Source: Anadara kagoshimensis (Eukaryota; Mollusca; Bivalvia; Arcoida; Arcidae). Taken from it: 64,000 nucleotides of DNA. The notes below the pieces were generated by a model. The model did not search any database and was not told the origin of the DNA. It worked only from the letters and a program-made list of their open reading frames with translations. Below are positions 7,968 through 59,548 of this stretch, piece by piece. The first letter of the stretch is position 1; each line of letters opens with the position of its first letter. Location: positions 48,228,508 through 48,292,507 of the forward strand of contig CM037870.1 of assembly GCA_021292105.1 (NCBI GenBank), read 5' to 3'. Position numbers and translations under genes: made by a program.

Positions 7968-8019
7968 TGGCATGTGCTGTTTTTGAATTTCTATTAGCAT
8001 TCAAAAACAGTACATGACA
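7968..8019. mobile_element. Short hairpin element, TSD TAAA
   Basis: The 52-bp element starts TGGCATGTGCTGTTTTTG and ends CAAAAACAGTACATGACA. The arms pair over about 18 bp with one mismatch around a 10-nt loop. Perfect 4-bp direct repeats TAAA flank it at 7964-7967 and 8020-8023, supporting insertion as a unit. Confidence 0.85.
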
Positions 8020-8333
8020 TAAAAGTTCTAGACATTTCGCGACTAGTTTACGTTCAAGTAATGCATGTACAATGCATGTTATGCAACGTGAAGTTTATTT
8101 CGTAAACGGCATTTAACAATGTCATCCTGACACCTAAACAACATACGGAAAATCAATAATGTCCGATTGCCTCCCGGAATACTCCTACCAGATGGAAAAT
8201 CCATCTAGAAGTGGTCAAATTGACCTCTACAGTCCATCCTTATCAACAGCAGCATGTAAGATAATAAATTACCAGAAACAGAATCCTTGTTAATAAATAC
8301 CATTTTACAAGAAAATCACGTACTCTGACTCTT

Positions 8334-8335
<2 letters not shown>

Positions 8336-8385
<50 letters not shown>

Positions 8386-8416
8386 ATGATCTCGAGAGAG
8401 AGAAAGAGAGAGAGAG
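8336..8416. repeat. (GA)n microsatellite
   Basis: GA dinucleotide runs at 8336-8380 and 8393-8416, interrupted by a short unique segment. Confidence 0.97.
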
Positions 8417-8476
8417 AAATTAGAATGTCATTTGTGTCAAATCGTAACCAGCTGTAAGTAATGTGTATTTCAACCT

Positions 8477-8590
8477 TGTCATATGATTTTTTTTAATTTT
8501 CTGAATGAAATAGTAATTCTACTGCTGGTTGTCATCTTTTAAATTGTTGAATATTTCATTCAGAAAATTCAAAAAATTATAATTATGAGA
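8477..8590. mobile_element. Short hairpin element, AATTTTCTGAATG subgroup
   Basis: Starts TGTCATATGATTTT and ends near AATTATGAGA. A perfect 17-bp inverted repeat, AATTTTCTGAATGAAAT, lies at 8495-8511 and 8553-8569. The same inner arm is found in the element at 59445-59548. The outer right end has mutated, and the flanks ACCT/CCGT give no clean duplication. Confidence 0.65.
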
Positions 8591-8594
8591 CCGT

Positions 8595-9195
8595 TACTGT
8601 GACAGGTAAGTTGAGGTAACATATAGGATTTTAGTATACTCTTATGTCTTGTTTTATAAAATGGTATTTACATACATGTATATAAAAATGTATACTGAAA
8701 CAATTTTTCTTCAATCTATATGCCACGCAACACAAGAAACGGACCTTAAAAGTTTAAATTTATGACATAAAACAACAAGAACTACTCATCCTCGGATCGT
8801 AATTATCTCTCTGAAATTTATTATTATTTCATTAATGGTGTTTTTATACATCACAATCAAATCAAAACAAAACATTGAAAGTCATCTACGTACCTCAAAG
8901 TAAACTATAAGATGCCTTCAACAATTTGATTCTGGTTTGATGGACCAGAACCCTAATAGGCCAAACTCTTGCTTAATTGAGAAATTCTGAAATTGTTCAA
9001 TGTACTTAGGCCTAAGTGAAATTAAACAACCAGTTGTACATTTGTACATTGCTTTGAAAGATAGTCTACTTGTAAGAGAAAAATAGAAACAAAGTGCTTA
9101 TATCAAAAACAAAAAATGGTTTACAAATATTGAAGCGTAGTTTCGCGAGAACTCTCGCGAATTCATAATTCACGCGAATATTCCAAGAATTGCAA
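8595..9195. other. No recognisable feature
   Basis: AT-rich sequence with no supported gene, RNA or repeat. Confidence 0.45.
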
Positions 9196-9199
9196 AAAA

Positions 9200-9252
9200 T
9201 TAAAAAAAAATAATCATAAAATACATGTACATTAAAAAAATGGTATATGACA
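9200..9252. mobile_element. Hairpin element, degraded left arm
   Basis: The loop motif AATCATAAAATACAT and the right arm AAAAAAATGGTATATGACA are clear. The left arm is reduced to TTAAAAAAAAA without the TGTCATATACC end, and no target duplication is visible. Confidence 0.65.
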
Positions 9253-9439
9253 ATAATACCATTTAAAAAAATGTATATTTTGATTAAATTTAAAAAAGGT
9301 ATACGACATTTCTAAAGTTCGAATTCCGCGCAGGTAGACTAGGCACATTTTCAGAAAAGGCGTCGTTTTAAAGAGGAAGAGGCATTTTTTAGTAAAAGCA
9401 AACCATATATCATTCTTACCTAATTTGGGTGTGTTGAGT

Positions 9440-9522
9440 CCGAAAATGGCGGATACCAAGCTGAAAAATTGCTCTAAGTAGGTCAAAATTTAAATACAAA
9501 ATGGCCGCCAAAATCAAAATGC
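9440..9522 (-). repeat. Single diverged copy of the ~172-bp repeat, antisense
   Basis: AAAATGGCGGATACCAAGCT and AAAATGGCCGCCAAAATC are the reverse complement of the two conserved blocks of the tandem repeat at 12360-13345. Confidence 0.55.
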
Positions 9523-9644
9523 ATTTTTGCATGAAAGTTGATATAGAAGTTGATTTGGTAGCAACAAATAACTATTAATCAAAGATTGTAATAATTCAAG
9601 GCTTACTTGTGTGTTAATAAACAGAAAATTTAAACAAAATACCT

Positions 9645-10105
9645 ATGGGCCTTATTGCTCACCTGAAAACATTTAAAAGATACTGAAATTTTAAGGGCAA
9701 CAACACCTTCGTTGATTATCACACACAAAATTTGCTACGAAGTTAGATATTGGCATGTTGATTATTTTGCAACTTGGTGTTGTTATCTATTTATAATACT
9801 CTTTAAAAAATATGGCCAAAAACACAAATTCGCAAAAAATTATACTCCAGGGGTAACAACTCCTCTTTGGATCATCGTATTCTTGCAAACATTGCTACTT
9901 AGTTTGTCATGTTCATTATTTTTTAATGTCTTCTTTATATAACACTAATAGTTTTTTAGTAAATAGCCACAAAACCAGCAAAATTTGCGAAAAAATCAAG
10001 TATTTTTTAGGGGCAATAACTCTGTAAAAAGGGTTTGATATTTATGAAATCAAACGATCTGGCATGCCGGTCAGCCTTCGTCTCAGGTGGCCTGGCGACA
10101 AAGGT
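9645..10105 (+). repeat. Dispersed repeat with GCTCACCTG ends
   Basis: Begins GGGCCTTATTGCTCACCTG and ends near CTCAGGTGGCC, giving short inverted ends. Inside, a motif like AGGGGCAATAACTC recurs three times (about 9693, 9850, 10010). Repeats with these signatures are common in bivalve genomes; their class is not known to me. Related pieces lie at 30185-30245, 30900-31260 and 33905-34750. Confidence 0.5.
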
Positions 10106-12355
10106 CATTATGACAAAATGTATATATTTCACTCATGAACGAAGTTCAAATGTTTAATTTAAGCCAGTTTTAAAGGTTTTCGCTTTTGGTTTTGGATTGT
10201 AATTTAAACATAGGACTGTATGTTTCTGTTTAATTCAATGCATTAAGTATGACACATAACATGCTGAAACACTGATATATGTATTCTAGAGTGTGAATAT
10301 AATGGCTTACAAAATTGAAGCCTGTGTTTGCACCAAATGCTTAAGAAATTTTCTTTTTTGCATTGGAAGAGCAAAGTTAATGTAACTACACTAGCCTTCC
10401 AAACCTATTAAGGGGTGCTTAGTCATCAACGAGCAGCTCTATGCTGACTATTTGCTAAAAGGTGAACTTGCACTACAAAATATTGATGTAAAGTTTGATT
10501 TTCAACTATAGCAAAAGTAATAGTACATTTTATTTTATTAAAACTGGTAAGTAGTAAGAGGGCTGAATGATATACCGTGAGTCTTCTGTTTAAGGAGATT
10601 GGAGTCGATGTCCCTTTTCAACCCTTCTATCCCCTAACTATTTAAATCCGTGTATCCGAAGACCAGTGTAATTTTGTTAGTTAATATCAACAAGGTATTA
10701 CTCTAAAATAAATAGGACTATTGACTTGGCAAATGTAAAAAATGGTGAAAGAGCAGGATCCAATATTTGCACAAGAACGGTTAGGCACCCAAGGCTATCC
10801 ATACTGATATGAATGGATTATGAACAGGACAAGCAGAACAGTAATGATGGACCCAGTCATAGAAGGTATGCCACAGCTGCAACCCCAGAAATGGTCAATA
10901 GATCTTTGTTTTCATTCCATTCATGGTAGCCGAAATCACCATTGGTTGCTCATTTTTGAGAAACCATTTTCTTTCAAAAAGCAAAAAAAATTGTTTTTGC
11001 AAATCTGTAAAAACAAAAATACTCTAGACATATCCACAAATTATGAAAGTTTGGCCACTAATAATTTTAAAATTGTGGAAACATAGATAAAAACCATGGT
11101 ATTGTTATGACTGACAGTTGAGTTACAGAAAATATAAGGGCAGTGAGTTGACATTTCACAGAGAACAATACTTTCTATTCTGACATCTTGCAATAAAAAA
11201 GCTTTGGGTCTGTTGCGCTTCTGACAATTAATCAGAAGCACACAAGATGCACTTTGTCGCGTGTTAATCTAAACATGTTAGTGATATCCTGCTAGCTCCC
11301 ATAAGAGCTTTGTTTCTATGGTACATATTACATCCTTGAGCCCAAATAACAGTCTAAACAATGGAATCACCTAGTTCATCTCCGCCAAAGAAGGCCCAGA
11401 AAGACTGTTCCATCACCACAGTTAACTTAGCTACTGATGGTACATGTAGATTATTTCCAAAAGGGACAAAAAATAAATGGCACATAATTTGTATTACTTT
11501 TCAGGCTGTTACGGAAAAATATCTAACTCAAGTGTTGTGGAAAACTCAGTAAAGGTGTCTTACTCCACTGACACAATTCTACCATTGCCTTGACTGCAAT
11601 TTATGATTGTGGCTTTTATATTGAGTGGCCAGCTTTTTGCTTAAGCTTGCACACCAGTCTTGCTGTTTACATTACCCAGTTTTATAGTGATATTATGATG
11701 TTATATATTCATTGGAGGACTTTCTGAATTTTCAAGAAAATGAATTATTTAAAAGTTGCATTGAGCTCCTTAAACATCGCTGGCAAAACTGTATAGAAGT
11801 TGTAAAATAATGCAATATTACCGTCATAATTCAAACCACTACATATTATGAGGTTCACAAGGTATCAATCTATATATGTTTTTTTAAATAATGGTTGTGA
11901 TTCTACCTATTAAAGCAATATCATTCTTAAAAGTTTAACGCACGACGACACGCATAGTAATTTGGTATTTTGACATTGACAACCACTGGTTCTACATCCT
12001 ATTTTGCAAAAACATGTGGCAAATTCTGTATAAAAAAGTGTTCTGGGATATGCTCTTTTGCATTTCAAACACAAGTTTCGATTTTGACTGGTAATTCCAC
12101 ACCATGAGCAGTATTTCCGTATGGTTATGAACTCAATTTATTAGTCTTGTAGATTTATCAGTGTACAATGCAAAAGGCACACATAATGAACAAACACTTA
12201 ACTATAGCCACCACTTTTTTTTTAGAAATTGTTTTAAATTTGGTTTAAACATTTATACTTCAGTTTATTAGCTTTTTTATTTTAATGTAACAACCCCAAG
12301 ACTGCAAGTCATTCTGAAATGTCACAAAGTACCATCTTTTGCTAACACATGGAAC
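10106..12355. other. Large gene-less AT-rich interval
   Basis: Short ORFs of 60-90 codons are present, but none has a recognisable domain, codon pattern or splice context. No dispersed repeat was identified by eye. Confidence 0.45.
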
Positions 12356-12359
12356 TTAA

Positions 12360-13345: not shown

Positions 13346-13791
13346 AAATGCCGCTTCAAGTCACATTTTCTGAATTTGTTCCTAGTCTAAGGCAGATGCT
13401 AGCTTGTAAAATCGAAAAAAATTCAGTTCGTTTGCTGAAAGTCGGTGGTTTTTCCTACACTCCTGTTTTCTCCAACATCCCAGAATGAACGGTGTGTATA
13501 TTAGTGAATACATCTTGGCAAGGCATTGTGTGTGTACACGTGTATCGTGCTTTCAATAGTCACCATTTTAACAGAAAAATCCATTAATGGAAATAGTGTC
13601 AATTATTTAAAAAAATGTTTATTAATTGTTGCATGTTCGTTAAGAAATCCCCATAATTGATTACATTCAAATTCTTCAGAAATTATTTTTGAATATTTTT
13701 AAAGACATAAAATAGATATTGAATTGTTATTAAAATTAAGGATAAACATTCACTTGTTGAGGTGTCATAATATGTAATTAGCGCAATGGTA
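13346..13791. other. No recognisable feature
   Basis: Mixed AT-rich sequence with no supported element. Confidence 0.45.
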
Positions 13792-15489: not shown

Positions 15490-15808
15490 AACTTCGCATC
15501 TCCGGTAGTATTGGAGGTATTCATTTCGTTGAAACTCGCATCTTCGGTAGTATTGGAGATGTTCATTCCGTTTAAACTCGCATCTGATGTTCATTCCGTT
15601 AAATATTCATTTCCTTAAAACTCACATTTTCGGTAGTGTCATATACCATTTTTTGAATTTATTCATAAAATACATTAAAAAATGGTATTGTCACATACCA
15701 TTTTTTTAATGTGTTTTATGCTTAAATTAAAAAAAAATGGTATATGACAGTAGTATTGGAGATATTGTTTCCGTTAAAACTCAAATCTCCGGTAGTAATG
15801 GAGATTTA
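15490..15808. repeat. Split-off fragment of the 42-bp hairpin satellite
   Basis: Several diverged units (ATCTCCGGTAGTATTGGAG, TTCATTTCGTT, AAACTCGCATC) identical in kind to the main array at 17943-19050. They are separated from it by nested insertions. One unit is interrupted by the hairpin dimer at 15637-15749. Confidence 0.88.
15637..15749. mobile_element. Dimeric short hairpin element, TSD GTAG, inside a satellite unit
   Basis: Starts TGTCATATACCATTTTTT and ends AAAATGGTATATGACA. Inside, a second TGTCACATACC start follows an AAAAAATGGTA arm, so two hairpins are joined head to head with their loops in opposite orientation. The flanks are GTAG (15633-15636) and GTAG (15750-15753). The uninterrupted satellite reads CCGGTAGTATTGG, so the empty site is known and the 4-bp duplication is certain. 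Confidence 0.93.
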
Positions 15809-16741
15809 TAGAATCTTACACCAGTAGCTGGGTAAGACAGAGATTTCTCACACCTGTGACAAGAAAATCCCGCGTTTTTACCCATGTGGGATTTCCTTGT
15901 CTCACCCTAGGGTTGAGACAGGCTTCCCGCGTAGTTATACCTGCTCTGGATTTATCGTTGAGAGGACTTAATAAGCTGAGAAAAGTTCCGAAGTCAACCA
16001 ACAATTTTTCAACTGGTGTAGGATTCTTTTTCTCACATTTTTGCAACATAAAATATGATTTGTAAACAAAAAATTGCATCAAATGTTCAGTTTTCATATC
16101 AACATCCGTGCCTACTGAAAATGACGTAATCAATTTTTGTTGACGTTCTCACGTAAAATGATTATGACGTCATCAATTAAGCGTGTGTAAGTGATTGTGA
16201 CGTTGGAGTTATGACGTTATGACGAGCCAATCAGGGCGTGTAGCTTGTCTTACACAGGGGGATTTTTATCCATGTGGGATTTCCTTGTCTCACCCTAGGG
16301 TTGAGACAGGCTACACGCTGAAATTCCCGCGTAGTTATACTTGCTCTGGATTTATCGTTGAGAGGACTTAATAAGTTGAGAAAAGTTCCGAAGTTAACCA
16401 ACAATTTCTATACGTCACAATCACTTAAACACGCTTAATTGTTGACGTCACAATCATTTTACGTGAGAACGTCAACAAAATCGATTACGTCATTTTCAGT
16501 AGGCACGGATGGTGACATGAAAACTGAACCTTTGAAGCAATTTTAATTTACAAATCATGTTTTACATTGCAAATGTGTGAGAAAAAGAATCCTAAACCAG
16601 TAACAGGGTAAGACAGAGATATCTCAAACTCGGATGAATATTTTCAATGTCCAGAAACCGCTAAAGCTCGTTCTGGACAGAAAAATATTCATCCTCGTTT
16701 GAGATACCTCTGTCTTACCCAACTACTGGTGTAAGATTCTA
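15809..16741. mobile_element. Large composite foldback element
   Basis: The ends are inverted repeats over about 33 bp, TAGAATCTTACACCAGTAG then TGGGTAAGACAGAG, one mismatch apart. Internally, a block at 15881-15990 is repeated directly at 16270-16405, and arms of about 185 bp at 16021-16203 are repeated inverted at 16409-16593. The last part (16600-16720) is itself a palindrome with GAATATTTTC/GAAAATATTC. TGACGT/ACGTCA motifs are frequent. No transposase is encoded; the ORFs at 15816-16133 are only symmetry by-products. Confidence 0.85.
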
Positions 16742-17892: not shown

Positions 17893-17942
17893 TTAATCTT
17901 ACACCTAGCAACCAACGGAATAACTCGGTGAAGTATGGGAGA

Positions 17943-19050
17943 AAATCATTTCGTTAAAACTCACATCTCCGGTAGTATTGGAGATGTTTATTTCGTTAAA
18001 ACTCACATCTCCGGTAGTATTGGAGATGTTTATTTCGTTAAAACTCACATCTCCGGTAGTATTGGAGATATTCATTCGTTAAAACTCACATCTCCGGTAG
18101 TATTGGAGATGTTTATTTCGTTAAAACTCACATCTCCGGTAGTATTGGAGATGTTCATTCCGTTAAAACTCACATCTCCGGTCGCATTGGAGATATTCAT
18201 TTCGTTAAAACTCACATCTCCGGTAGTATTGGAGATGTTTATTTCGTTAAAACTCACATCTCCGGTAGTATTGGAGATGTTCATTCCGTTAAAACTCACA
18301 TCTCCGGTAGTATTGGAGATATTCATTTCGTTAAAACTCACATCTCCGGTAGTATTGGAGATGTTTATTTCGTTAAAACTCACATCTCCGGTAGTATTGG
18401 AGATATTCATTTCGTTAAAACTCACATCTCCGGTAGTATTGGAGATGTTTATTTCGTTAAAACTCACATCTCCGGTAGTATTGGAGATGTTCATTCCGTT
18501 AAAACTCACATCTCCGGTAGTATTGGAGATGTTTATTTCGTTAAAACTCACATCTCCGGTAGTATTGGAGATGTTCATTCCGTTAAAACTCACATCTCCG
18601 GTCGCATTGGAGATATTCATTTCGTTAAAACTCACATCTCCGGTAGTATTGGAGATATTCATTTCGTTAAAACTCACATCTCCGGTAGTATTGGAGATAT
18701 TCATTCAGTTAAAACTCACATCTCCGGTAGTATTGGAGATATTCATTTCGTTAAAACTCACATCTCCGGTAGTATTGGAGATATTCATTTCGTTAAAACT
18801 CACATCTCCAGTAGTATTGGAGATATACATTTCGTTAAAACTCACATCTCCGGTCGTATTGGAGAGGTTCATTCCGTTAAAACTCACATCTCCGGTAGTA
18901 TTGGAGATATTCATTTCGTTAAAACTCACATCTCCAGTAGTATTGGAGATATTCATTTCGTTAAAACTCACATCTCCGGTAGTATTGGAGAGGTTCATTC
19001 CGTTAAAACTCACATCTCCGGTAATATTGGAAATATTCATTTCGTTAATA
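17943..19050. repeat. 42-bp hairpin satellite (about 26 units)
   Basis: The unit is TTAAAACTCACATCTCCGGT then AGTATTGGAGATGTTTATTT and CG. Each unit contains the dyad CATCTCC ... GGAGATG (7-bp stem, 9-nt loop). The unit length is a multiple of three, so both strands stay open: a 380-codon frame on plus and long frames on minus, each a 14-residue repeat. The opposite-strand frames and high unit identity indicate tandem duplication rather than coding selection. A unique leader (ACACCTAGCAACCAACGGAA, 17903-17922) precedes it and is duplicated at 17547-17566. Confidence 0.95.
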
Positions 19051-19054
19051 CTTG

Positions 19055-24380: not shown

Positions 24381-24477
24381 TGTCATGTACTGATTAAAAT
24401 AATGCATTCAAAATCAGCACATGACAACTGATTTTGAATGCATTATTTTAATAAAAATTCAAAATCAGCACATGACA
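24381..24477. mobile_element. Dimeric short hairpin element, TSD GCAA
   Basis: Starts TGTCATGTACTGATT and ends AAAATCAGCACATGACA. A second internal CAAAATCAGCACATGACA lies at 24410-24426, so two units are fused. The loop is GAATGCATTATTTTAAT-like. GCAA flanks it at 24377-24380 and 24478-24481. Confidence 0.9.
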
Positions 24478-29710: not shown

Positions 29711-29768
29711 TTTCATATACTACTTTTGAATACATTATTTCATAAAAATTCAAAAGCAAAACATGACT
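29711..29768. mobile_element. Short hairpin element, diverged
   Basis: TTTCATATACTACTTTTGAA, loop TACATTATTTCATAAAAA, then TTCAAAAGCAAAACATGACT. The GCTACTTTTG-type arms are still recognisable. No clear 4-bp duplication. Confidence 0.7.
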
Positions 29769-29927: not shown

Positions 29928-29985
29928 TGTCATGTGCTACTTTTGAATGTATTATTTCAATCAAATTCAAAAGTAGCACATGACA
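29928..29985. mobile_element. Short hairpin element, TSD ATAT
   Basis: TGTCATGTGCTACTTTTGAA pairs perfectly with TTCAAAAGTAGCACATGACA (20-bp arms) around the loop TGTATTATTTCAATCAAA. ATAT flanks it at 29924-29927 and 29986-29989. This is the cleanest monomer in the window. Confidence 0.93.
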
Positions 29986-31260: not shown

Positions 31261-32600
31261 AAGACACTGACTTATGCGCAATTATGTATTGCAAGTTGTA
31301 CCAGATAAAGCATTGTTATTTAACAATCTCATTTTTAATGTATAAAACGGCGGTAAAATGATAAAATTGACTCTGAATCACTTTAGTTAGAGGCAGCATT
31401 CCGACCTAGAAATGCCAACATCAAACTCAGAAGCTATTGTTGAAAATTTAATAAGTTTTCCAGCCTGGAGATCCTAAGAAGGGGATGTTATATAACACCC
31501 TCCGGGATGTCGACAGAACGCCAGATTTTCCTCCCCGGATCAGTCATTTTATATTTGCGTAAAACGGTAGGGGTACTTGTTTTTCTTTTCCGAAGGAGGC
31601 ACAAATTGAAATGGTAACGTATTTGATTGTTTAACATATTTTTAAAGCTTCCCCTTTCTGCAGAAAAAATGTCTTTTTTTCTGTTGTTTTCATGGCCTTT
31701 AAAATATATATTTTAAAAAAAATAATTTTAATTTTAATTGTAGTATTTGATTGAAGAATTCAACTCCTGGTTCCTTTATTATGCCTCTTTCTAACAATCA
31801 TATTATTTCTACACAAATACCCCAAGATAAAGATATCAATGCTATTCACGAATTATAAACGCCCTTCAAATACAACGTCTGGCGGGACAATGTATGTGGG
31901 AATTTAATTGACTTTGGACACTGAGTTTTAATTGATTTTATTAAAAAATTCTATATTTAGTAATAGGAGCTAAATAATGTCCTTGAGTTGTCGACAGGCT
32001 AGACTAGTTACTACGCTTATAATCCCTATTGCCTAATAAAATCAGACATCGGTTTAGTTTAATACTGGATCTCAAATTAAGTATAGTGTTGTCACGTGAT
32101 AATTATTAAATTTTATCTAAAATAAGACATTTAAACATTAACACATGAAAACGTTTTCAAAACTTCCAAAGTATCTCGCCCATTCCGACGGTTCGTTTCA
32201 GTTTTAGATGAAAAATATGAAAAATATAAATGCCACAAAAAGGTTTTCCTTTGCATACTAGTATTAGATTGATAGGGAATGACCACTTAAATAGGAAACT
32301 TACAAACGTGTTCAATATTTCTTACTAAATACATAGGGAATGGAAAGTTTTTAGCACCCCCTCTCCAACAGTTTCTGATCATTCATTTGTTCAGTTAAAT
32401 ACAATATGTACCCTGAGAAATTGAAATTACTAATTTATTACTAATTTGTTATAAATAATAACAATAATTTGAATTTGCGTCAGTAATAATGACGGGTTTA
32501 AACTACTTTAACTTCAGTTGGAAAGACAATGGTGAAACTTTCAAATGATTTAGTCCCGTTTTAGTCCACTTCCGGTGAAACTGGAAGGGGGCTGTTTTGG
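31261..32600. other. Gene-less AT-rich interval
   Basis: Nothing supported. A short palindrome GTTATATAAC lies near 31490. Confidence 0.45.
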
Positions 32601-32886: not shown

Positions 32887-32945
32887 TGTTATATACCACT
32901 TTTTTAATTTAATAATAAAATACATTCATAAAGTGGTATATGACA
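32887..32945. mobile_element. Short hairpin element, CCACTTTTTT subgroup
   Basis: TGTTATATACCACTTTTTTA pairs with TAAAGTGGTATATGACA around the loop AATTTAATAATAAAATACAT. Note that the C-to-A change relative to the ACCATTTTTT subgroup is matched on both arms. No clear target duplication. Confidence 0.8.
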
Positions 32946-33500: not shown

Positions 33501-33584
33501 AGCACATGTGTCATATACCATTTTTTTACTTCAATCATAAAATACATTAAAAAAATGATTAAATTAAAAAAAATGGTATAAGAA
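33501..33584. mobile_element. Composite hairpin element, right end mutated
   Basis: TGTCATATACCATTTTTTTA, loop CAATCATAAAATACATT, then a second loop-like ATGATTAAATT and the arm AAAAAAAATGGTATA. An AATAGCACATG end of another subgroup sits directly to the left (33498-33508). Confidence 0.65.
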
Positions 33585-38429: not shown

Positions 38430-38493
38430 CAACGTTCTGAATTGTAAATTTTTGAATAGTTCATTCAGAAAATTAAAAAATGTTTAATAAGAC
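38430..38493. mobile_element. Degenerate hairpin element, TTGTAAATTTTTGAA subgroup
   Basis: TTGTAAATTTTTGAATAGTT then CATTCAGAAAATTAAAAAAT matches the inner part of the element at 59445-59548; the outer ends are lost. Confidence 0.5.
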
Positions 38494-38559
38494 AGAGCTA
38501 ATAGATAATCTATTGCATATGTCATTAGAAATTTCCGGGAAATGCATACATGGTTTATT

Positions 38560-42990: not shown

Positions 42991-43907
42991 AAAGTACTGT
43001 GGGGGAAATGATATTATGCTAAATATATCTGGATGGTCTTAATCCTGATTTGATTTTGCATCCGGATACGATCGTGTTTAGTGCAACCCAGTGACATATG
43101 GATATGACATCGTTTACACATGCTTTTGTTATTGTGTCCTGTACTTCTTGTGCTGCATCCGTCATGTGATAATTCTTTATGCATTATGCCATGTAACATT
43201 CAAAAACAGTACATTGCAATTGTACCACATTCAAGCTAGTTACTTTCCTATCATTAAACTTACATCAAAACGCCATAAAAACCACAAATAATATATAAAC
43301 CAAATTTTAAAATTCTTTAAAAGCCCTATTCATAATAAATTCACATGATAACCTTGAAGCATCTTAACAGTAACACGAGACACAAGTGTTTATGTGCAAT
43401 TTGAAAATGTTGTCTTTAGCAGTTAATTTGTCTTAATGTTCCAGATGCCATTTGTTAATTAGAATCAATTAACACTACATAACATTTCAAACTTGTCGAT
43501 GAGATGTTTAAAATATTGGATATGTCAGTACGCTGGACCATATTTCAAATTGTTACGACAACTTTGAAGATAAGGATTTCATTGGCTACCATAATTATAG
43601 GGTTACTTATCTATCTATCTGATATTTAGCGTGTTATAAATGATGAGACATGATATCTCTTAGAGTGTTAAATGTGTCAATTTTTTGTCGAATTGTACTT
43701 AAATTGTCATCAAAAGATAGCCGTGACATGGATTTCATGATAAATACAGAGTTCAAGAAAGCGTTTAAATTCTGAATAAATTTATCATACGGTTTGTGGC
43801 GGTAGAGTGCGTGGTGAGTTTAAACGAATATGTAAAATTGAAAAGGTTCTAAAATGTTTTAGTGCACAGCAAACTACAATTATGTATGACATCCCGTCTC
43901 AACAATC
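42991..43907. other. AT-rich spacer, one possible hairpin remnant
   Basis: GTCATGTGATAATTC and CATTCAAAAACAGTACATTG at 43160-43217 resemble a degraded hairpin element. Nothing else recognised. Confidence 0.35.
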
Positions 43908-44769: not shown

Positions 44770-45940
44770 CGACCTAGAACAAACAACAATATTTGTAATC
44801 AACCAAGCATACCAGTCCAGAATCTACGACACAATGTGTAACTAAACAAGCTTTTCAGTCCAGAATCAATAACACAATGTGTAATCAACCAAGCATACCA
44901 ATTTGTAATTAACCAAGCCTACCAGTCCAGAATCAACAACACAATGTGTAATTAACCAAGCCTACCAGTCCAGAATCAACAATACAATGTGTAATCAACC
45001 AAGCCTACCAGAGCAGAATCAACAATACAATGTGTAATCAACCAAGCCTACCAGTCCAGAATCACAATACAATGTGTAATCAACCAAGCCTACCAGAGCA
45101 GAATCAACAATACAATGTGTAATCAACCAAGCATACCAATTTGTAATTAACCAAGCCTACCAGTCCAGAATCAACAATACAATGTGTAATTAACCAAGCC
45201 TACCAGTCCAGAATCAACAACACAATGTGTAATTAACCAAGCCTACCAGTCCAGAATCAACAATACAATGTGTAATCAACCAAGCCTACCAGAGCAGAAT
45301 CAACAATACAATGTGTAATCAACCAAGCCTACCAGAGCAGAATCAACAATACAATGTGTAATCAACCAAGCCTACCAGTCCAGAATCAACAATACAATGT
45401 GTAATCAACCAAGCCTACCAGAGCAGAATCAACAATACAATGTGTAATCAACCAAGCCTACCAGTCCAGAATCAACAACACAATGTGTAATTAACCAAGC
45501 CTACCAGTCCAGAATCAACAATACAATGTGTAATCAACCAAGCCTACAAGAGCAGAATCAACAATACAATGTGTAATCAACCAAGCCTACCAGAGCAGAA
45601 TCAACAATACAATGTGTAATCAACCAAGCTTGCCAGTCCAGAATCAACAATACAATGTGTAATCAACCAAGCCTACCAGAGCAGAATCAACAATACAATG
45701 TGTAATCAACCAAGCCTACCAGAGCAGAATCAACAACACAATGTGTAATCAACCAAGCATACCAGTCCAGAATCAACAACACAATTTTTAATCAACCAAG
45801 CATACCAGTCCAGAATCAACAACACAATTTTTAATCAACCAAGTCTACCAGTCCAGAATCGACGACACAATTTGTACCCAGTATACCAGTTCAGAAGAAC
45901 TATAAAAATGTGTAATTGATTATAACCATTTTACCTATCG
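44770..45940. repeat. 43-bp satellite (about 26 units) between two RT copies
   Basis: The unit is ACCAGTCCAGAATCAACAAT, then ACAATGTGTAATCAACCAAG and CCT. Two unit types alternate irregularly (ACCAGTCC and ACCAGAGC). Being 43 bp, it opens no long frame. It ends at the 3' terminus of the antisense RT copy at 45945. Confidence 0.95.
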
Positions 45941-46589: not shown

Positions 46590-46972
46590 ATGATTTTGTG
46601 ATAGTCTTCTTTTTAGCTTTAACAATTCTGCTTATGATTAAATACTAGTAAATAAATCGTCAAGCAATAGTTTACGGTTTATATCCAATAGTAAACCGAT
46701 GTCTGTCGGACAATTACATTGCGAAACGCGACAATTTATGTCATCCATCAAAAACTATGTAAAACAACTTTTTTCAACTTACCAAGTTGTTTCTTGTGAT
46801 AGAATTTTCATGGTTTGGAAAATCTGTAGAGGGGTCTTCGGTCGCAAAAAGTGGTGCTTTCTATAATATGAATTGTTGCCACAAAATCTAAAGTCTCGAC
46901 TTTATAGACTTTTGTCGAACTCTCATCACCAGTATGGACATTTGCATCCAACAGACAGGAACTTCATATGTA

Positions 46973-46975
<3 letters not shown>
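46590..46975. other. No recognisable feature
   Basis: Nothing supported between the RT copy and the TA run. Confidence 0.4.

Positions 46976-47038
<63 letters not shown>
46976..47038. repeat. (AT)n microsatellite at the mariner 3' border
   Basis: About 31 AT repeats ending exactly where the mariner end GAGGGGAGGTCAAAAAGTTC begins. Confidence 0.95.
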
Positions 47039-47041
<3 letters not shown>

Positions 47042-48168
47042 GGGAGGTCAAAAAGTTCATAGAACGGGGTATATATTGCCGAATCAAACCATACATTTTA
47101 TTATTATTTTTCAATATATAGTCCCCATTTACCCCAATGCACTTAGCCCACTTTTCTTTCAGACTGTCTATACCTTTGAAATAGAAGTCTTCGGTTTGGT
47201 GCTGACACCATGCCTCTCTGGCAGCCTTAAGTCCATCTTCATCAAGAAATCTGATTCCCCGTAAATGGGATTTCAAATTTCTAAATAGGAAATAATCAGT
47301 GGGTGCTAAATCGGGACTGTAGGGTGGGTGATTAAGTTGTTCGAACTTGCATTCACCAATCGCTGCTTGTGCAATCCTTGACTTGTGCACAGGAGCATTG
47401 TCGTGAAGAAGCAATACCCCTCGGCTCAACTTTCCCCTCCTTTTTTTAGCTGCTTTCAGCTGCTTCATTAGATCAGTATAGTAAGCCCGGTGATAGAGAT
47501 TCCAGCAGGTTTATAATTGATTAACAGAACACCCTTTGAATCCCAAGACACAGTGGCCATGACTTTGCCAGCTGATGGTTGGGTTTTGAATTTCTTTGGT
47601 GAGAGTGAGGCAGGGTGCTTCCATTGCATGGACTCTTTTTTGGTTTCTGGGTCCCAATGATGAATCCGTGTTTCCTCATCAGTTACTAAACGTAAATGGA
47701 AGCTCTTCGGGTTATCATTATAAATGTCAAGAAGCTCCCGACTTGACTGGAGTCTTTGGAAGCGATCCTGCACATTAAGGTTTTTGGGGACCCATCTTGC
47801 GAATACTTTTGACATCCCAAGATGCTCGTGGATAACCGTGTATACACTTCCATGTGAAATGTCACACTCCCTAGCTATGTCATCAATCCTAATTCGACGA
47901 TCATTCATGATGAGGGTCTCCACAGACGTGACAATTTCCTTTGTGATGGCATCAGCTGACCGACCTGGCCGTGGGTTATCCTTCAGTGAGGTGCGCCCAC
48001 GTTTAAATTCAGCTGACCATTTTGCCACTGTAGAATAGGCAGGACCACTGTCACCGTACACCTCGGCCATTCGCCGGTGAATTTCTTTGGCATTTGATCC
48101 CTCTACTGTGAGAAATTTTATTACTGCCCTAAACTCAACATTTTGATTTTCCATCATTGCTTGATGGT
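47039..48168 (-). mobile_element. mariner-type DNA transposon, one end missing
   Basis: The 3' end (plus-strand left) is GAGGGGAGGTCAAAAAGTTC, a plausible mariner terminus next to TA. The other end should lie beyond 48168, but only 10-12 bp separate the start codon from a second TA run (48169-48182), and no inverse of the terminus is found up to 48400. The usual 100+ bp leader and the terminal repeat are therefore gone. Confidence 0.82.
47070..48157 (-). pseudogene. mariner transposase, frameshifted, D34D family
   Basis: The first frame runs from ATG at 48157 to about 47478. It has an N-terminal helix-turn-helix (residues about 5-50), a second one around DDIARECDISHGSVY (about 95-110), a WVPKNL linker (WVPHEL-type), and a first catalytic region reading VTDEETRIHHW. 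Known mariners have TGDE there, so the aspartate appears replaced by glutamate. One net base loss near 47490 shifts the frame. The second frame holds LLHDNAPVH (second Asp) and YSPDLAPTDYFLF (third Asp), with 34 residues between the two: the mariner D34D signature. A full transposase of this family has about 340-350 residues, which fits the sum of both parts. It would cut and paste DNA at TA. The frameshift and the changed Asp make this copy inactive. Confidence 0.88.
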
Positions 48169-48185
48169 CATATATATATATATTG

Positions 48186-48412
48186 CAAAAAATATCAGTA
48201 GTTCCCAGGCAACAAGCTGACAATACTTGTGATTTCTGTGGCTGTCGCTATCATGACGTCCTGTCTAAAACATATCACCTTAGAAACATATTGTTTAACA
48301 TATTGTTAGATAATTTTAACATCCGTCTATCTGTAGAAATAGTTGGATATGACGAGGAACCACTCAACCAGTGTCTTCTAGGTAAGGAAACTAAATTTAG
48401 ATTTTATAATAC
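48186..48412 (+). pseudogene. LINE C-terminal coding remnant
   Basis: The plus frame reads NTCDFCGCRYHDVLSKTYHL, then about 45 residues including LDNFNIRLSVEIV and a GKETKFRFYN end. The CX2C start, aromatic/leucine spacing and terminal basic-aromatic segment resemble the zinc-binding C-terminal tail of CR1/Jockey/R2-like LINE proteins. It is cut by the hairpin element at 48413 and bordered on the left by the mariner. No RT domain remains. Confidence 0.55.
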
Positions 48413-48516
48413 TGCCATGTGCTACTTTTCAACTTTATGAAATAATATAATTCAAAATGTTGTCAAGTGCTGATATTTGAATGCATTATAAAAAAAATCA
48501 AAATCAGCGCAAAACA
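48413..48516. mobile_element. Composite hairpin element inside a LINE, TSD ATAC
   Basis: Starts TGCCATGTGCTACTTTTCAA and ends AAATCAGCGCAAAACA. The left half belongs to the GCTACTTTTG subgroup and the right half to the GCTGATTTTG subgroup (internal TGTCAAGTGCTGATATTTGA), so it is a mixed dimer. ATAC is duplicated at 48409-48412 and 48517-48520. Confidence 0.85.
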
Positions 48517-53461: not shown

Positions 53462-54828
53462 TTTATCACATACCCATTGAATCTTACTATAGCGATACAT
53501 TACATTTTCTTGCCATGTGATACAAAGGTCCATATCGCACATGTGCAATACAACATTCCGTATCACCATAGTAGCCGGAACAATAATATGCTTATGTGAT
53601 ACGTAATGACAATAATATGACGTCAATATGTGATAAATACAAAACCACACAAAAGTGGTTTTCTGACGTAGCTGATCGCACGAGTTTATTGTGCGGACGT
53701 ATACATTACACGAGTGCGCTCTGCGCACGAGTGTAATGTATGCGTCCGCACAATAAACTCGTGCGATCAAGCTACGTCAGAAAACCACTTTTGTGTGGTT
53801 TTGTATTTATCACATGCCCTACCAAACTAAATGAAAAGCTTTCTTTGGCTTAATCTGTCAAAGAATTCACAATCAACTCAGTATTTCATATTGATTTTTG
53901 ATCTGATTCGAAAAATCTGATACCTGACTGGAAAAACTGCTAAAGAAGTAATTAAAAACAACAGATAACTCTTCGTTTACGCATTATCGGTTAACATTTT
54001 ACTTATACCATCGTAAACACTGGGAAAAATTAAAAAACAAACATTGATTTTACAAAATTATTTAATATCGTCCGCGATTCTCCCAACTCGAGTAAATTCT
54101 CCCAACTTAACATGACGTATGTATCACATATTGACGTCATATTATTTTTGTCATTACGTATCACATAATGACGTCATATTATTGTTGTCGGAAAAGGGAA
54201 TTCCCCTAAAAGGAGTTCCGGCTACTATGGTGATACAGAATGTTGTATCACACACGCGTGATACAGACTTCCATATCACATAGCTTGAAAAAACAGTGTA
54301 TTGCTATAGTAAGATTAAATGGGTATGTGATAAATTATGTGATGTCATGTTAAGTTGGGAGAATTTACTCGAGTTGGGAGAATCGCGGACGATGTTAAAT
54401 AATTTTGTAAAATCAATGTATGTTTTTTAATTTTCCCCAGTGTTTACGATGGTATTAGTAAAATGTTAACCAATGATGCGTAAACGAAGAGTTATCTGTT
54501 GTTTTTAATTACTTCTTTAGCAGTTTTTCCAGTCAGCTATCAGATTTTTCGAATCAGATAAAAAATCAATATGAAATACTGAGTTGATTGTGAATTCTTT
54601 GACAGATTAAGCCAAAGAAAGCTTTTCATTTAGTTTGGTAGAGTATGTGATAAATACAAAACCACACATATAAGTGGTTTTCTGACGTAGCTTGATCGCA
54701 CTCGTTTATTGTGCGAACGCATACATTACACTCGTGCGCAGAGCGCACTCGTGTAATGTATCCTCGTAATAAACGAGTGCGGTCAGCTACGTCAGAAAAC
54801 CACATATGTGTATTTATCTAACAGTAGA
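53462..54828. mobile_element. Nested palindromic element complex
   Basis: Modules in order: A (53462-53627), P (53628-53815, itself a near-perfect palindrome), B (53816-54117), A inverted (54118-54334), B inverted (54341-54643) and P again (54644-54828). B arms are about 300 bp and highly similar. Nearly every module border carries ATGTGATAAA or its inverse TTTATCACAT. P has a GC-rich centre (GTGCGCTCTGCGCAC; in the second copy GTGCGCAGAGCGCAC). No coding region; the 104-codon minus ORF is within palindrome P and A. Confidence 0.9.
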
Positions 54829-55060
54829 CTAGTTTTTCTATCTGATTTGACGAAATACAAGTTTTATTGAACACGAATGATACAGAACATTGACGGTAAA
54901 GTGCACTTGCACGTTCTCATGTGACGTCATTGGGGAGAATGTAGAACAAATGTCATTAACATAGTTCAGTGGTTTTCTGTGGTAAAATGTAATTTTTTCA
55001 CATAAAGTATTGTTTTTTTTATTATTTTAAATAACCTAATTAGAAATGTTAGATAAAAAA
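54829..55060. other. No recognisable feature
   Basis: Nothing supported. Confidence 0.4.
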
Positions 55061-55226
55061 TATTATATACACAGTGTGTATGTACAACCCTTCGTATCAG
55101 GTCTCGTCCTTTTTTTCGTAGCTGTATCACTAATCGTCGCGCAAGCGCGACTCGGAGTGATACGGCTACGAAAAAAGGACTCGACCTGATACAAAGGGTT
55201 GTACATACACACTGTGTATATAATAT
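55061..55226. mobile_element. 166-bp near-perfect palindrome
   Basis: Arms of about 68 bp (ATTATATACACAGTGTGTAT, ACAACCCTT, GTATCAGGTC.., TTTTTTCGTAGC) mirror each other almost exactly around a GC-rich centre with GCGCAAGCGCG. The design is like module P at 53628, but the sequence differs. Confidence 0.9.
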
Positions 55227-55227
55227 G

Positions 55228-55266
55228 TATGTATTTTATGATTAAATTAAAAAAATGGTATATGAC
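55228..55266. mobile_element. Half of a short hairpin element
   Basis: Loop ATGTATTTTATGATTAAATT and right arm AAAAAAATGGTATATGACA, starting where the 166-bp palindrome ends. The left arm is missing. Confidence 0.75.
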
Positions 55267-55756
55267 AGTTCGAAAAAGTAGGTCGCTACGTACAAATTAA
55301 AGGACGCTTACAACTACTAGAGGTGATTGAAACAGACTGAGCAAGATAAGAATAAGAAACTATGAATGAAAATAAGAATCATGGAAGGACATTATTCATT
55401 TGTATCACTTGTCTTTAACACTAATAGCTGTGGCAAAAATAAATTTAATGTCATATTACAGTGAAATGCAAAAGATGAGGTACAGGAAGTACAAAAAACG
55501 TTAACGGTATAATGTATTATATTGTAGGTGGTTCGTAATTTCGAAAAACTATTACGTATGTTCACAATTTCGAACATTCAAAATACTATTACAAAAGTAC
55601 AAAATACTATTTCAATACGCGATGTTACGTTGACGATAGAATAGTATTAAAAAATCTTCAGAATTTAGTACCGGGTAATTGTAACGATGTGCAGATAGGG
55701 TTGTTAATAATTTTGCCATACCTACCGTGTCATGCGTGCTGTGTGCCTCACTGAAA

Positions 55757-55758
<2 letters not shown>
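55267..55758. other. No recognisable feature
   Basis: AT-rich; TTTCGAA and AATACTATT motifs recur loosely around 55540-55620. Nothing else supported. Confidence 0.4.
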
Positions 55759-55821
<63 letters not shown>

Positions 55822-55829
55822 GGGGGGGG
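55759..55829. repeat. (GT)n microsatellite with GA and G runs
   Basis: About 26 GT repeats, then (GA)n and nine G. Confidence 0.97.
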
Positions 55830-56166
55830 AAGAAAGCAACAATACAACAATTCACATCTGTTACAACACGTCCTGAACCAGTACAAATATTAGGACTCTA
55901 CAAACACCATTACACCCATTACGACTTTACCTGTCTGGGCCAAACTGGTCGACAATAAAGGTACTTAAATGTTGCATCATGGGTTGTAATTGTAAATTTT
56001 GACCTTTGGATACCCTTAAGTATTGGTAAAGGATTTAACTGGTCTAAACTGATAATATCGGACTTAAATTTTACCGCCCGATATCATATCGGCATTCAGA
56101 ATGATGCTTATGGGAAATTGTGCATGCTCGAAAACCCCCAAAATATGCATTTTTGATCACCTTGTA
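55830..56166. other. No recognisable feature
   Basis: Nothing supported. Confidence 0.4.
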
Positions 56167-56225
56167 TGTCATCTACTTTTGTTTTACTTTAATCATGAAA
56201 TACATTAAAAAATGGAACATGAAAA
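56167..56225. mobile_element. Diverged short hairpin element
   Basis: TGTCATCTACTTTTG at the left, loop TTTAATCATGAAATACATT, right AAAAAATGGAACATG. Left and right arms belong to different subgroups, so it may be recombinant or strongly mutated. Confidence 0.6.
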
Positions 56226-57084
56226 CACATTGTATATAAAGGTTTTTATTGAAAAAAACGTAAATAAAGTCAATTAATGGGTTTTCTTATGTTCAATTTT
56301 TCGTTTACATACATTTTCAAAAAATATAGACAATGGCATAAAAAGTGAACTTGGATTGATCTCGGGTATTTCTCAGTCGAATTTCTAGACACGTCTTTGT
56401 GTCACTGTTATGTAAGAAAAACAGACTAGGGGCTTTAAATACACAAATAAGTATGTGTGAAAGGTTAAATAAATAATTTTACCTAATCAGTTCTCTATCA
56501 ACCCGAGTAAAGTAGTTGTTATAATGGACACTTAAGCTAACTTTCTTAACATACACGAGGAATACTAATAAGGGGACATTTTGTTTCGCTAAAAATCCGT
56601 GATGTTTGTCCATCAATTCTCTAACTACAAAAATTGCATCTGTCCATTATAAAACACACATTTCTTACAGGACTTTTTATATATTTGTTTATGTTGTTTA
56701 CGATCAGAATAAAACGGGATGACAACAAAACACAGTGTAGCAACTCCTAATGAAGTCCTTAATTTATTAAGCGTCGAAATTACAATTTCTAATGAAGTTA
56801 CTAGGCGTTGACAATTTTGGCGCCTAATGAAGTCCATAGATTCAGATTTAAGATCTAGACACGATGTCAAAAACAGTTGTTCAATTTTGAGAATAATTTT
56901 ATATTGTAGTAGCAAAAAGACTTCTTATCTGGCGCCTCAATCTTTGGACCGACTGAAGTCTGAACTTCATCAGGGTTTATTCCAATGCAGATAGGTCTGC
57001 AAGTAAACTTGTGTCAATTAGATGTGAACATGTACACCATGATTTGTCATTAGAGAACAGATTTTACCGTCAATTACGTTTACA

Positions 57085-57085
<1 letters not shown>
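56226..57085. other. No recognisable feature
   Basis: Nothing supported. Confidence 0.4.
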
Positions 57086-57172
<87 letters not shown>

Positions 57173-57174
57173 CC
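57086..57174. repeat. (AAAT)n(AATC)n microsatellite
   Basis: AAAT repeats switch to AATC repeats at about 57120. Confidence 0.97.
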
Positions 57175-57194
57175 GAACGGCCATGTGACGTCAA

Positions 57195-57990
57195 ACAGAT
57201 TTCAGGTTTCAACGACGTAGTTTTAAAGGACTTTACCGTTTATTACGCAAAAACACGATCGGTTCCACGATTTCAAACAGACTTTACCGTGGATTACGCA
57301 AAAAGACGAACGGTTCTACGACGTCAAATAGACTTTACTATCAATTACGCAAAAAGATGAACGGTTACAGAACGTCAAACGGGCTTTACCGTCGATTACG
57401 CAAAACAAATGCACGGTTCTACGACGTGAAACGGACTTTACCGTCGATTACGCACAAAGTTGCGCGGTTCTACGACGTCAAGCAGAATTTACCGTCGATT
57501 ACGCACAAAGATGCACTGTTCTACGACGTCAAGTAGAATTTACCGTCGATTACGCACAAAGATGTACGGTTTCACGACTTCAAACAGACTTTATCGTCGA
57601 TTACACAAAAAGACGATCGGTTCCGGCCGTAATAAAGACTTTACCGTCGATTACGCAAAAAAGATGAACAGTTCCATAACGTTAAGCAGATTTACCGTCG
57701 ATTACCCAATAGCACGAACGGTTTCGCACGTTATACAGACTTAACCGTCGATTACGCAAAAATGCACTATTCTACGACGTCAAACAGACTTAGGCGTCGA
57801 TAACGCAAAAACACGAACGGTTCCGGGTGTCATACAGACTTCACCATCGATTACAAAAAACGACGTCAAACAGACTTTACAGTCGATTACGCAAGAAGAC
57901 GAACGGTTCGGGGTGCCATATAGACTTTATATAGACTTTCCATTGATGCTAGCAGACTTTTCCGTCGATCACGCAATAAAGACGCGCGAT
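57195..57990. repeat. 51-bp CpG-dense tandem repeat (about 15 units)
   Basis: The unit contains TTTACCGTCGATTACGCAAA, AAGACGAACGGTTCTACGAC and GTCAAACAGAC. Units are diverged and some are shortened. CpG is far denser than in the surrounding sequence. A partial ORF (57460-57744) reflects the 17-residue periodicity and is not called as a gene. Confidence 0.92.
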
Positions 57991-58199
57991 TCTGGACTTC
58001 TGTTAAAGCGGTTTCTAATCCCCGTCCTGATGACATGACGAGACAACATTCTCATTCCACAAGGGAACAAAATTGCTATACGAATTCAAAAATAAACAAA
58101 AACAATTGGTTCGCATCTTTTCGTCCTCCTGCTATCGCCCCTTTTCTTCTTTTTCCTAAGTCACTGGTTATTTGATGAATAATGTCCTCATTATAATTA
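57991..58199. other. No recognisable feature
   Basis: Nothing supported. Confidence 0.4.
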
Positions 58200-58252
58200 T
58201 GTCATATACCATTTTTTGAATTTAATCATAAAATACATATATAAATATGACA
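58200..58252. mobile_element. Short hairpin element, TSD ATTA
   Basis: TGTCATATACCATTTTTTGA, loop ATTTAATCATAAAATACAT, right arm ATATAAATATGACA (partly mutated). ATTA flanks it at 58196-58199 and 58253-58256. Confidence 0.88.
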
Positions 58253-59024
58253 ATTAGGTTAGAAATTACGCAATTTGACATTTTCCGTAATAAAAACGTT
58301 ATCTTAAGCCAGATATTTGTACAATTTTCCATTATATACAATTAACATTCAGAGAAGGCCGTTTTATCCGACTTTGACGTTGTTGCATTGGTTATTGTCA
58401 ATTGCATATTTTTCAGCTGCTTCCATGTGCAGAATTTTGAAATTTTACCAAAAGAAACATTCAAAATTCTGCACATCATATGAATTTTTGATATTTCTTT
58501 TGTAAGAAATCAAAAGTCTGGAAATGACACTGGAACTATTTTGAACCCCCCCCCCCCCCCACCCCTCCCCGTTTTATACTAAATTTGGTTTACTTTAAAT
58601 ACACTGGAAGAAGATTGTTTAGTGGGGTTTTTTAATTATTTTCCTGAAAGAAATATATAAAATATTAATGCTATCAAATGACTGGTATCCTCAATAAGAA
58701 ACTGACATATGTCTTTTTTTTTTAATGTACTGAAAAACAGCATCGAAACCGCTTCAAAAATAGCACCGACGTTTCAAAATTACGGTTACAAAATTATTGC
58801 ACGATATTAAACAACATATTATCAAAGAAATGTTCCACATTTTAAATGGAAAACATCCTATAATTACGTGGCACGCAGACCGTAAACAATTAACGATTTG
58901 GTGAGTTATTACGTCATGGTCAATCACCTTATATTAGCTGTCCGGTCGTTATGGTCAGTTTTCTTTTGTTGTGTCCAGACGGTCATTTAGTTATTGTTGA
59001 GTAAGATTTACTCAGGTGTGCATA
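58253..59024. other. Spacer with a C-run
   Basis: Poly(C) at 58546-58560. Nothing else supported; the short ORF at 58317-58505 has no motif. Confidence 0.45.
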
Positions 59025-59235
59025 GTCAGGTAAAGAGAATCCCACAAGAATACCCTACCCAGTCTAGTAAAGGAAATCCCAACTGAATACCCTACCCAGT
59101 CTGAAAGTATGGGATAGAGACCATAGCTAGGTAAAAAGAATCCCACAAGACTATCCTACTCAAGTCTGAAAGTATGAAATAGGGACCATAATCATGTAAG
59201 AGAATCCCAACTGAATATGATGTCCGGTCTGGAAA
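59025..59235. repeat. ~75-80-bp tandem repeat (3-4 diverged units)
   Basis: AGAGAATCCCACAAGAATAC / GGAAATCCCAACTGAATACC, CCTACCCAGTCTGAAAGTAT and GGGA(T/C)AGAGACCATA blocks recur. Confidence 0.8.
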
Positions 59236-59440
59236 TAGGAACGAATTTGATCTCTTAGATCCAAAAACAATTAAAACACAAACTGGTCATCCTTAAATTA
59301 ATTTCATAGAACTGTCCAACGCATGGAGTTTTCCCATAAAAATGGCAGAAAATTTGTCTGTTGTTCATAAAATATAAATAAACTTGGTACGCAATTCAAC
59401 TCCAACAACTTCATCACTGGTAGGCGTCAACCTTCTAAAT
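59236..59440. other. No recognisable feature
   Basis: Nothing supported. Confidence 0.4.
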
Positions 59441-59444
59441 CGAG

Positions 59445-59548
59445 TGTCATATTATAAATTTTTGAATTTCCTGAATGAAATATTCAAAAATTTGTCTTAA
59501 ATTTTTTTAATATTTCATTCAGAAAATTCAAAAATTTACAATATGACA
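59445..59548. mobile_element. Long-armed hairpin element, TSD CGAG
   Basis: TGTCATATTATAAATTTTTG then AATTTCCTGAATGAAATATT is mirrored by AATATTTCATTCAGAAAATT then CAAAAATTTACAATATGACA, two mismatches in about 40 bp. CGAG is duplicated at 59441-59444 and 59549-59552. Confidence 0.92.

Follow-up and report, generated by a model that had tools for sequence, protein, structure and literature searches.

Results and discussion

Within a 64,000-bp stretch of the genome of the bivalve Anadara kagoshimensis (C14:48228508-48292507, the whole of which is referred to here as the window, in an assembly of 1.115 Gb and 36 contigs, 19 of them chromosome-sized) lie copies of a family of short inverted-repeat elements that begin with TGTCAT, end with ATGACA and are flanked by 4-bp target site duplications (TSDs). 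We regard it as a new family of miniature inverted-repeat transposable elements (MITEs) whose palindromic architecture is unusual. Intact young copies are perfect or near-perfect palindromes of about 124 bp, in which a short spacer separates a 58-61 bp unit from its reverse complement, and the element inserts as one palindromic dimer with a 4-bp stagger. The family is probably a recently active, non-autonomous one that transposes in this dimeric form, is mobilized in trans by an integrase-like enzyme, acquires its dimers through fusion of ends and has undergone partial collapse.

Direct evidence of insertion

One insertion is seen at C1:2614854-2615097, where a 124-bp palindrome (at C1:2614914), composed of a 59-bp unit, ATATAT and the reverse-complement unit, stands between two copies of AAAC. 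A duplicated segment at C1:3313200-3314200 has flanks that are 100% identical (60 + 60 nt) but lacks the element, the two flanks meeting at just one AAAC. Six other pairs of stretches from the same duplicated region are 83-100% identical, and the region may represent either a segmental duplication or a second haplotype that was retained; large duplicated stretches, perhaps haplotypes left unmerged, extend over C1 at about 2.24-2.69 Mb and 2.96-3.38 Mb. Another empty site is found inside the window, where the flanks of the copy at 15637, joined with a single GTAG, match 29 places, of which 26 belong to a minisatellite array (17932-19052) and 3 to neighbouring units, the best match being 90.7% over 86 bp without gaps. 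No empty site was recovered with the flanks of 17 other window copies, for which the only other spanning match (38435) was the copy's own locus. Thirty-three letter-identical copies of the perfect 124-bp palindrome are present in the genome, and these, together with the empty site with identical flanks, indicate recent activity.

Forty intact-centre dimers were fetched from contigs C1-C3, namely the first 20 from each of two lists of dimer centres, leaving out a known locus in one list and C2:55677714 in the other. An exact 4-bp duplication surrounds 29 of the 32 that have exact outer ends, repeated loci (e.g. L102/L103) being counted as fetched, so that the TSD is of fixed length; among the other three, one matches at 3/4 positions and the two remaining cases (L085, L086) represent a single duplicated locus. 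The original prediction held that these sequences were inserted as units, and this is borne out by the two empty sites and by the duplications of the exact-end dimers.

Architecture of the palindrome

A single alignment of monomers and dimer halves (n = 14 sequences) gives the unit plan as TGTCATRT, a variable stretch, TTTTGAATTT, an AT-rich loop, CATTCAAAA, the variable stretch once more and ATGACA. The original description of the elements as two arms and a small loop holds only for the monomers; the copies of 97-114 bp are inverted dimers of a 52-59 bp unit. Judged against the best-matching reference unit, the halves run forward then reverse in 6/6 window dimers and in the collapsed copy at 33509, and an eighth candidate, at 56167, has a clear first half only. 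Two of the dimers (59445 and 15637) fold nearly end to end, and exact words are longer between halves of the same dimer than across dimers (7/5040 permutations reach the observed sum).

In its young form the element is a perfect palindrome of 124 bp, with a 6-bp palindromic spacer between a 59-bp unit and its reversed counterpart. Across the genome, the tail-to-tail junction pattern gives 121 arm matches (at most two per dimer) and the head-to-head pattern none; 37/40 fetched dimers read as tail-to-tail, joined at the CATTC side, and L107 and L115 are not fully readable. The commonest spacer, in 19/40 fetched dimers, is of 6 bp, and all 19 are 3+3-nt palindromes: ATATAT in one subfamily, ATTAAT in a second and ACTAGT in a single copy belonging to a third type. 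This difference between subfamilies points to separate dimer births. The remaining spacers are of 1-5 bp, plus two of 10-11 bp, and mostly resemble centre deletions. At one locus (L077, C1:11605671-11606028) two intact dimer centres stand 90 bp apart, apparently as a higher-order palindrome.

With a size range of 52-124 bp, arms of up to 62 bp, terminal inverted repeats (TIRs), no coding capacity and 2215 units of one subfamily genome-wide, the family has the size, structure and high copy number of MITEs. Its outer ends are inverted, not direct, repeats, unlike those of terminal-repeat retrotransposons in miniature (TRIMs), which derive from long terminal repeat (LTR) retrotransposons.

Abundance and duplications

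The pattern TGTCATN40-70ATGACA has 19,756 matches in the genome, against 8,648 for a control pattern read backwards. Intact dimer centres number 198 for the ATACC subfamily and 209 for the GTGCT subfamily (spacers ATATAT/ATAT in one of the two and ATTAAT in the other), with none for the controls, and the exact 59-bp unit of the 124-bp palindrome occurs 540 times (271 + 269 by strand). Fifty listed matches to the TGTCATN40-70ATGACA pattern, all on C1, yielded 51 pairs of ends, 21 with hairpin arms and 30 without. A TSD accompanies 2/30 of the pairs without arms, and these two (L046, L050) are near-identical loci that by eye contain family sequence. Five exact-end pairs were seen in a 200-kb sample taken at fixed positions on 18 contigs, none with a TSD. 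This sample has one strong family match, the 64-kb window 19, which makes the window unusually rich and the copies strongly clustered.

In the window itself, exact TGTCAT...ATGACA pairs 30-200 bp in length number 13, five of them with a 4-bp duplication (expected mean 0.03, maximum 1, in 30 order-3 simulated sequences). When one mismatch per end is permitted, there is no clear excess, with 9/760 pairs duplicated against a simulated mean of 5.4 and maximum of 13. An exact 4-bp repeat flanks 9/18 window copies with both ends placed; in the same copies, repeats of 3, 5, 6, 8, 9 and 10 bp are absent, and those of 2 and 7 bp occur once each. Two of the nine (43135, 59615) have boundaries set partly by the repeat itself, and leaving them out gives 7/16 (binomial p = 3e-11 at an empirical match rate of 0.0083).

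Target sites and the mobilizing enzyme

Forty-nine unique TSD-verified sites (30 dimers, 12 others and 7 window copies) share the weak palindromic consensus TTRATA-[GTAC]-TATYAA. The information over 8 core positions is 1.40, compared with a mean of 0.18 and a maximum of 0.50 in 1000 random draws, and a T stands two bases before the duplication in 57/98 half-sites (33% in the background). A preference for TA next to the TSD in the window alone (corrected p 0.007 with 9 sites and 0.06 with 7, the top-scoring dinucleotide in the latter set being a different one) became part of this wider consensus. Within the duplication, VTAB is found at 9/49 sites against a background of 4.0%, and VTAB is the 4-bp duplication described for the integrase of murine leukaemia virus (MLV) (PMC3790719); a T...A logo has been described for an integrase chimaera (PMC4477651). 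With their weak palindromic consensus, a feature known for retroviral-type integrases, the target sites look like those of an integrase-type enzyme.

The TGTCAT ends are probably recognised by an enzyme whose gene lies elsewhere in the genome; it would join them to the two target strands with a 4-bp stagger, as retroviral-type or Ginger-type integrases do, and would favour the weak palindromic target. Each subfamily's dimer would descend from a monomer through the fusion of two ends at a point 3 nt beyond the unit, by fusion of sister ends or copying of a hairpin; such a position of the fusion would explain the 3+3-nt palindromic spacers.

The original prediction also proposed a search for a larger element with the same ends that encodes an integrase or transposase, and none came to light in the limited places covered. 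No element of 250-9900 bp with TGTCAT ends was seen in the window, the 200-kb sample or the stretches L074 and L075, which gave 5 weak TGT...ACA pairs with a 4-bp TSD. An end probe consisting of TGTCATGTGCTACTTTTGAAT plus a final A or C has 110 places in the genome, and among the 23 examined (in 20 stretches) there was no larger element; by eye these are mutated, truncated or rearranged copies of the palindrome family. A genome search for rve domains returned 1594 candidates, of which 150 matches were scored, all above cut-off, and most genome rve matches probably belong to LTR elements. One rve family (L136, L137) was considered as a Ginger candidate and rejected: it looks like an ordinary LTR element, with long frames of up to 691 aa, a putative reverse-transcriptase motif read by eye and no TGTCAT-type ends. 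Pfam detected no integrase in 10 open reading frames (ORFs) of the window; three of the ten have transposase-family matches, two of them mariner-type and one a weaker DDE_3 fragment below cut-off. In a protein search, one ORF of the window had 13 relatives, the closest being 88% and 97% identical over 73% and 52% of the query.

Origin of the shorter copies

Many of the shorter copies have the appearance of dimers that lost their centre in place. Two centre-deleted copies (L039, L149) retain their TSD, and TSD-bearing copies of 71-104 bp (L007, L039, L149) bridge the sizes of dimer and monomer. The solitary units L118, L119, L129, L132, L133 and L135 have parts of a second unit within 12 bases, and ATAT lies beside L126 and L130, so that these solitary units look like halves of broken dimers. 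In 100 listed exact monomer units, 28 stand as 14 adjacent exact pairs. The arms in a dimer form direct repeats of 21-22 bp, 65 bp apart, and a single slippage between them could yield an exact monomer with the outer duplication kept, from which we infer that collapse of inserted dimers in place is a main source of short copies and has produced many of the 59-bp monomers with TSDs; some copies may have transposed as monomers.

L143 (C3:41848920-41849280) is a remnant of 39 bp that has no TSD and consists almost solely of its two arms, TGTCATGTGCTACTTTTGAATCAAAAGTAGCACATGACA, and L153 (C4:49739060-49739700) is a tandem array resembling half-units of the palindrome family, as in MITE-derived satellites.

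Alternative explanations

Several observations weigh against a family that moves as a palindromic dimer by means of an integrase-like enzyme. An exact TSD flanks only 5/20 sampled solitary units of the first subfamily (a sample that left out 6400805, 8088266, 8342581, 8371901, 8401936, 8435304, 13721653, 13948221, 14144406 and 14755235, as well as dimer halves and places below 3.4 Mb examined earlier) and only 7/21 hairpin pairs with exact 52-82 bp ends. Some loci are present twice in this set (L057/L067, for example, both counted); two of the seven are a single locus, and the 21 include both halves of L059, a dimer whose outer TSD is exact. Solitary units are common, the remaining 72/100 listed exact units standing outside adjacent exact pairs (some with an imperfect partner). 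In one fetched dimer (L109), whose second half is damaged, the two halves read with one orientation; the wider centre lists include a few 6-base spacers that miss a perfect palindrome by one base (ATTTAT, ATACAT, ATTAGT); and a gapped global-identity test of dimer halves is not significant (672/5040 permutations). The empty site on C1 could in principle reflect precise excision. No transposase came to light in the limited places covered, and the class of the enzyme is read from ends, TSD length and target logo only.

Insertion at a size of 52-59 bp, as originally supposed, is possible, and the perfect 59-bp monomers with exact TSDs (L116, TATA; L117, CAAG), the further 59-bp units L142 and L156, the TSD-bearing window monomers at 7968, 29928 and 58200, and the 540 exact consensus units, with 28/100 of those listed in adjacent exact pairs, would all suit a scheme in which the monomer is the transposing unit itself and the dimers, also mobile, arise secondarily. 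We hold this scheme to be unlikely: collapse of a dimer in place yields an identical product with the TSD retained, two of four sampled exact solitary units (L129 and L135, not L116 and L117) have pieces of a second unit alongside, and 59-bp DNA is stiff, a hard substrate for the pairing of two ends. A more radical proposal, which strikes us as quite improbable, is that the mobile species is a folded hairpin, a 59-bp unit extruded or copied as one strand, whose base duplex would mimic a cut integrase substrate (TGTCAT...ATGACA with 3' CA). An integrase would join two such hairpins to the target 4 bp apart, and opening and joining of the two caps would leave either a monomer or a palindromic dimer joined tail to tail. 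Such a mechanism would account for the co-variation of the arms, the constant polarity and the movement of pieces too short to bend, and needs a few flanking bases to be carried with each hairpin for the 3+3-nt spacers. Similarity between arms is indeed higher within a copy than between copies (0.75 vs 0.63, permutation p 3e-4, n = 13 copies), and could also be read as the mark of selection for an RNA function that maintains the hairpins. It is hardly conceivable that this is their explanation: the TSDs, the empty sites and the 33 identical copies demonstrate mobility, no Rfam family reaches the gathering score in the window, and co-variation is also expected if subfamilies descend from separate palindromes.

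As to the enzyme, the likeness to LTR-type integrases and Ginger transposons put forward in the original prediction stands as regards the TG...CA ends, the 4-bp TSD and the palindromic consensus, and fails as regards the published Ginger targets; no integrase-bearing partner came to light in the limited places covered. That the elements are non-autonomous derivatives of the Ginger2 or Ginger1 DNA transposon superfamily seems to us somewhat unlikely. Their TGTCA ends conform to TGTNR, as in Ginger1, and TGTNR ends with 4-bp TSDs are found in both Ginger groups, Ginger2/TDD included (PMC2836005); Ginger elements were moreover counted in a survey of molluscs (PMC10294476). The Ginger1 targets CCGG, CCGT and ACGG, however, are used at 0/49 sites and the Ginger2/TDD target RTATAY at 2/49. 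Ginger1 is characterised by a Gypsy-like integrase gene and Ginger2/TDD by a DDE transposase with an H2C2 zinc finger; the limited searches brought up neither a Ginger transposase nor a larger element. Mobilization in trans by the integrase of an LTR retrotransposon, with the base of the hairpin resembling an LTR end, is improbable. The ends, the 4-bp stagger, the weak palindromic target and the abundance of scored rve matches are consistent with it, as is the enrichment of the MLV type of duplication. The places covered yielded no LTR element that combines TGTCAT ends with a 4-bp TSD, and the one family inspected (L136, L137) is without such ends. The complete 8-base MLV-like pattern fits 1/49 sites, with a background of 0.37%.

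Relation to known elements

Perfect long palindromes are usually considered unstable and hard to propagate. Despite this view, a palindrome of 124 bp has here been recently mobile, and the natural series of intact, half-collapsed and collapsed palindromes makes palindrome decay measurable in an animal genome. The family also tests the lower size limit of cut-and-paste elements, and its spacers record the birth of inverted dimers. A literature search, mostly outside subscription journals and with Repbase and Dfam not covered, returned nothing that matches the palindrome family in the text available. Scans of a viral contig collection with arm motifs gave 4 unrelated, non-hairpin matches for one pattern and none for three others, and a scan of a genome contig collection gave no match for one pattern.

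Foldback and Galileo elements are alike in that long inverted repeats form much of the element, and differ in that Galileo has been put in the P-element superfamily. They are also much longer than members of the palindrome family. Another comparison is with the Angel MITEs of zebrafish, reportedly described by Izsvak in 1999. As summarised in a review (PMC12628747), Angel elements have inverted repeats and a proposed amplification through a released stem-loop, but no spacer-joined perfect palindrome of fixed polarity appears in that account, and their insertion is ascribed to local homology. The CMITE elements of Acropora (PMC2872659) resemble the present family in a length of about 100 bp, a conserved inner part, variable terminal repeats, an empty allele and tandem arrays; they differ in their TTAA duplications and piggyBac origin, and the terms palindrome and dimer are absent from the accessible text. 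Ginger1 and Ginger2/TDD share with it TGTNR ends, an integrase-like logic and 4-bp TSDs (in Ginger1 and the metazoan Ginger2 families), whereas their target sequences (CCGG/CCGT and RTATAY) are different and both encode a transposase (PMC2836005). Ginger1 elements are about 2.6-7 kb long with TIRs of 40-270 bp, Ginger2 TIRs measure about 50-180 bp, and the available part of the description mentions nothing palindromic (PMC2836005).

Copies and neighbouring features in the window

All seven copies for which perfect 4-bp repeats had been predicted are present letter for letter with those repeats, and the further diverged copies, put at no fewer than eight, come to 13 (Table 1). The copy at 58421-58529 was recovered by the family model although absent from its building set; the orientation of its second half was judged by eye, the model scoring both strands almost equally.

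Table 1. Copies of the palindrome family in the window (positions are those of the window)
Copy	Position	Strand	TSD and remarks
Monomer, 52 bp	7968..8019	+	TSD TAAA; left end imperfect, TGGCAT
Inverted tail-to-tail dimer, 113 bp, eroded centre	15637..15749	.	TSD GTAG; host site is a 42-bp minisatellite unit
Inverted dimer, 97 bp, internal deletion	24381..24477	.	TSD GCAA
Monomer, 58 bp, perfect 21-bp arms	29928..29985	-	TSD ATAT
Inverted dimer, 104 bp, diverged	48413..48516	.	TSD ATAC; imperfect ends TGCCAT...CAAAACA
Monomer, 53 bp, damaged right arm	58200..58252	+	TSD ATTA; terminal match left is 8 bp
Inverted dimer, 104 bp, third subfamily	59445..59548	.	TSD CGAG
Probable inverted dimer	58421..58529	.	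Found with family model; flanks CTGC/CTGG, 3/4 match
Inverted dimer	8477..8590	.	Flanks 2/4 match
Inverted dimer, one outer end missing	9195..9308	.	Minus-strand centre GGTAT-TAT-TGTCATATACC
Collapsed inverted dimer	33509..33583	.	TSD no longer present
Monomer, 59 bp, long arms	32887..32945	+	Without TSD
Diverged monomer	29711..29768	-	Without TSD
Diverged monomer, third subfamily	38435..38494	-	Without TSD
Diverged monomer	59615..59672	-	TSD TTAT within ATT repeat; TSD helped set boundary
Probable diverged copy, 84 bp	43135..43218	.	TSD ATTG; TSD helped set boundary
Partial monomer	55224..55267	-	Adjoins a different inverted repeat, 55060-55226
Diverged monomer	32090..32150	+	Found with family model; without TSD
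Diverged monomer	56167..56224	+	Without TSD
Half-unit remnant	60375..60426	-	

The window also contains long minisatellites at 34-2246 (unit 42 bp), 2449-2846 (39 bp), 17932-19052 (42 bp, the array that provides the empty site for the copy at 15637), 44899-45876 (43 bp) and 57229-57854 (51 bp). A mariner-type transposase (Pfam Transposase_1, HTH_48, DDE_3) lies in two frames on the minus strand at 46929-48247, and the second frame contains an AT repeat. Long palindromes whose ends differ from those of the family are present at 16147-16468, 53628-53815, 54032-54428 and 55060-55226, the last of which adjoins the broken family copy at 55224.

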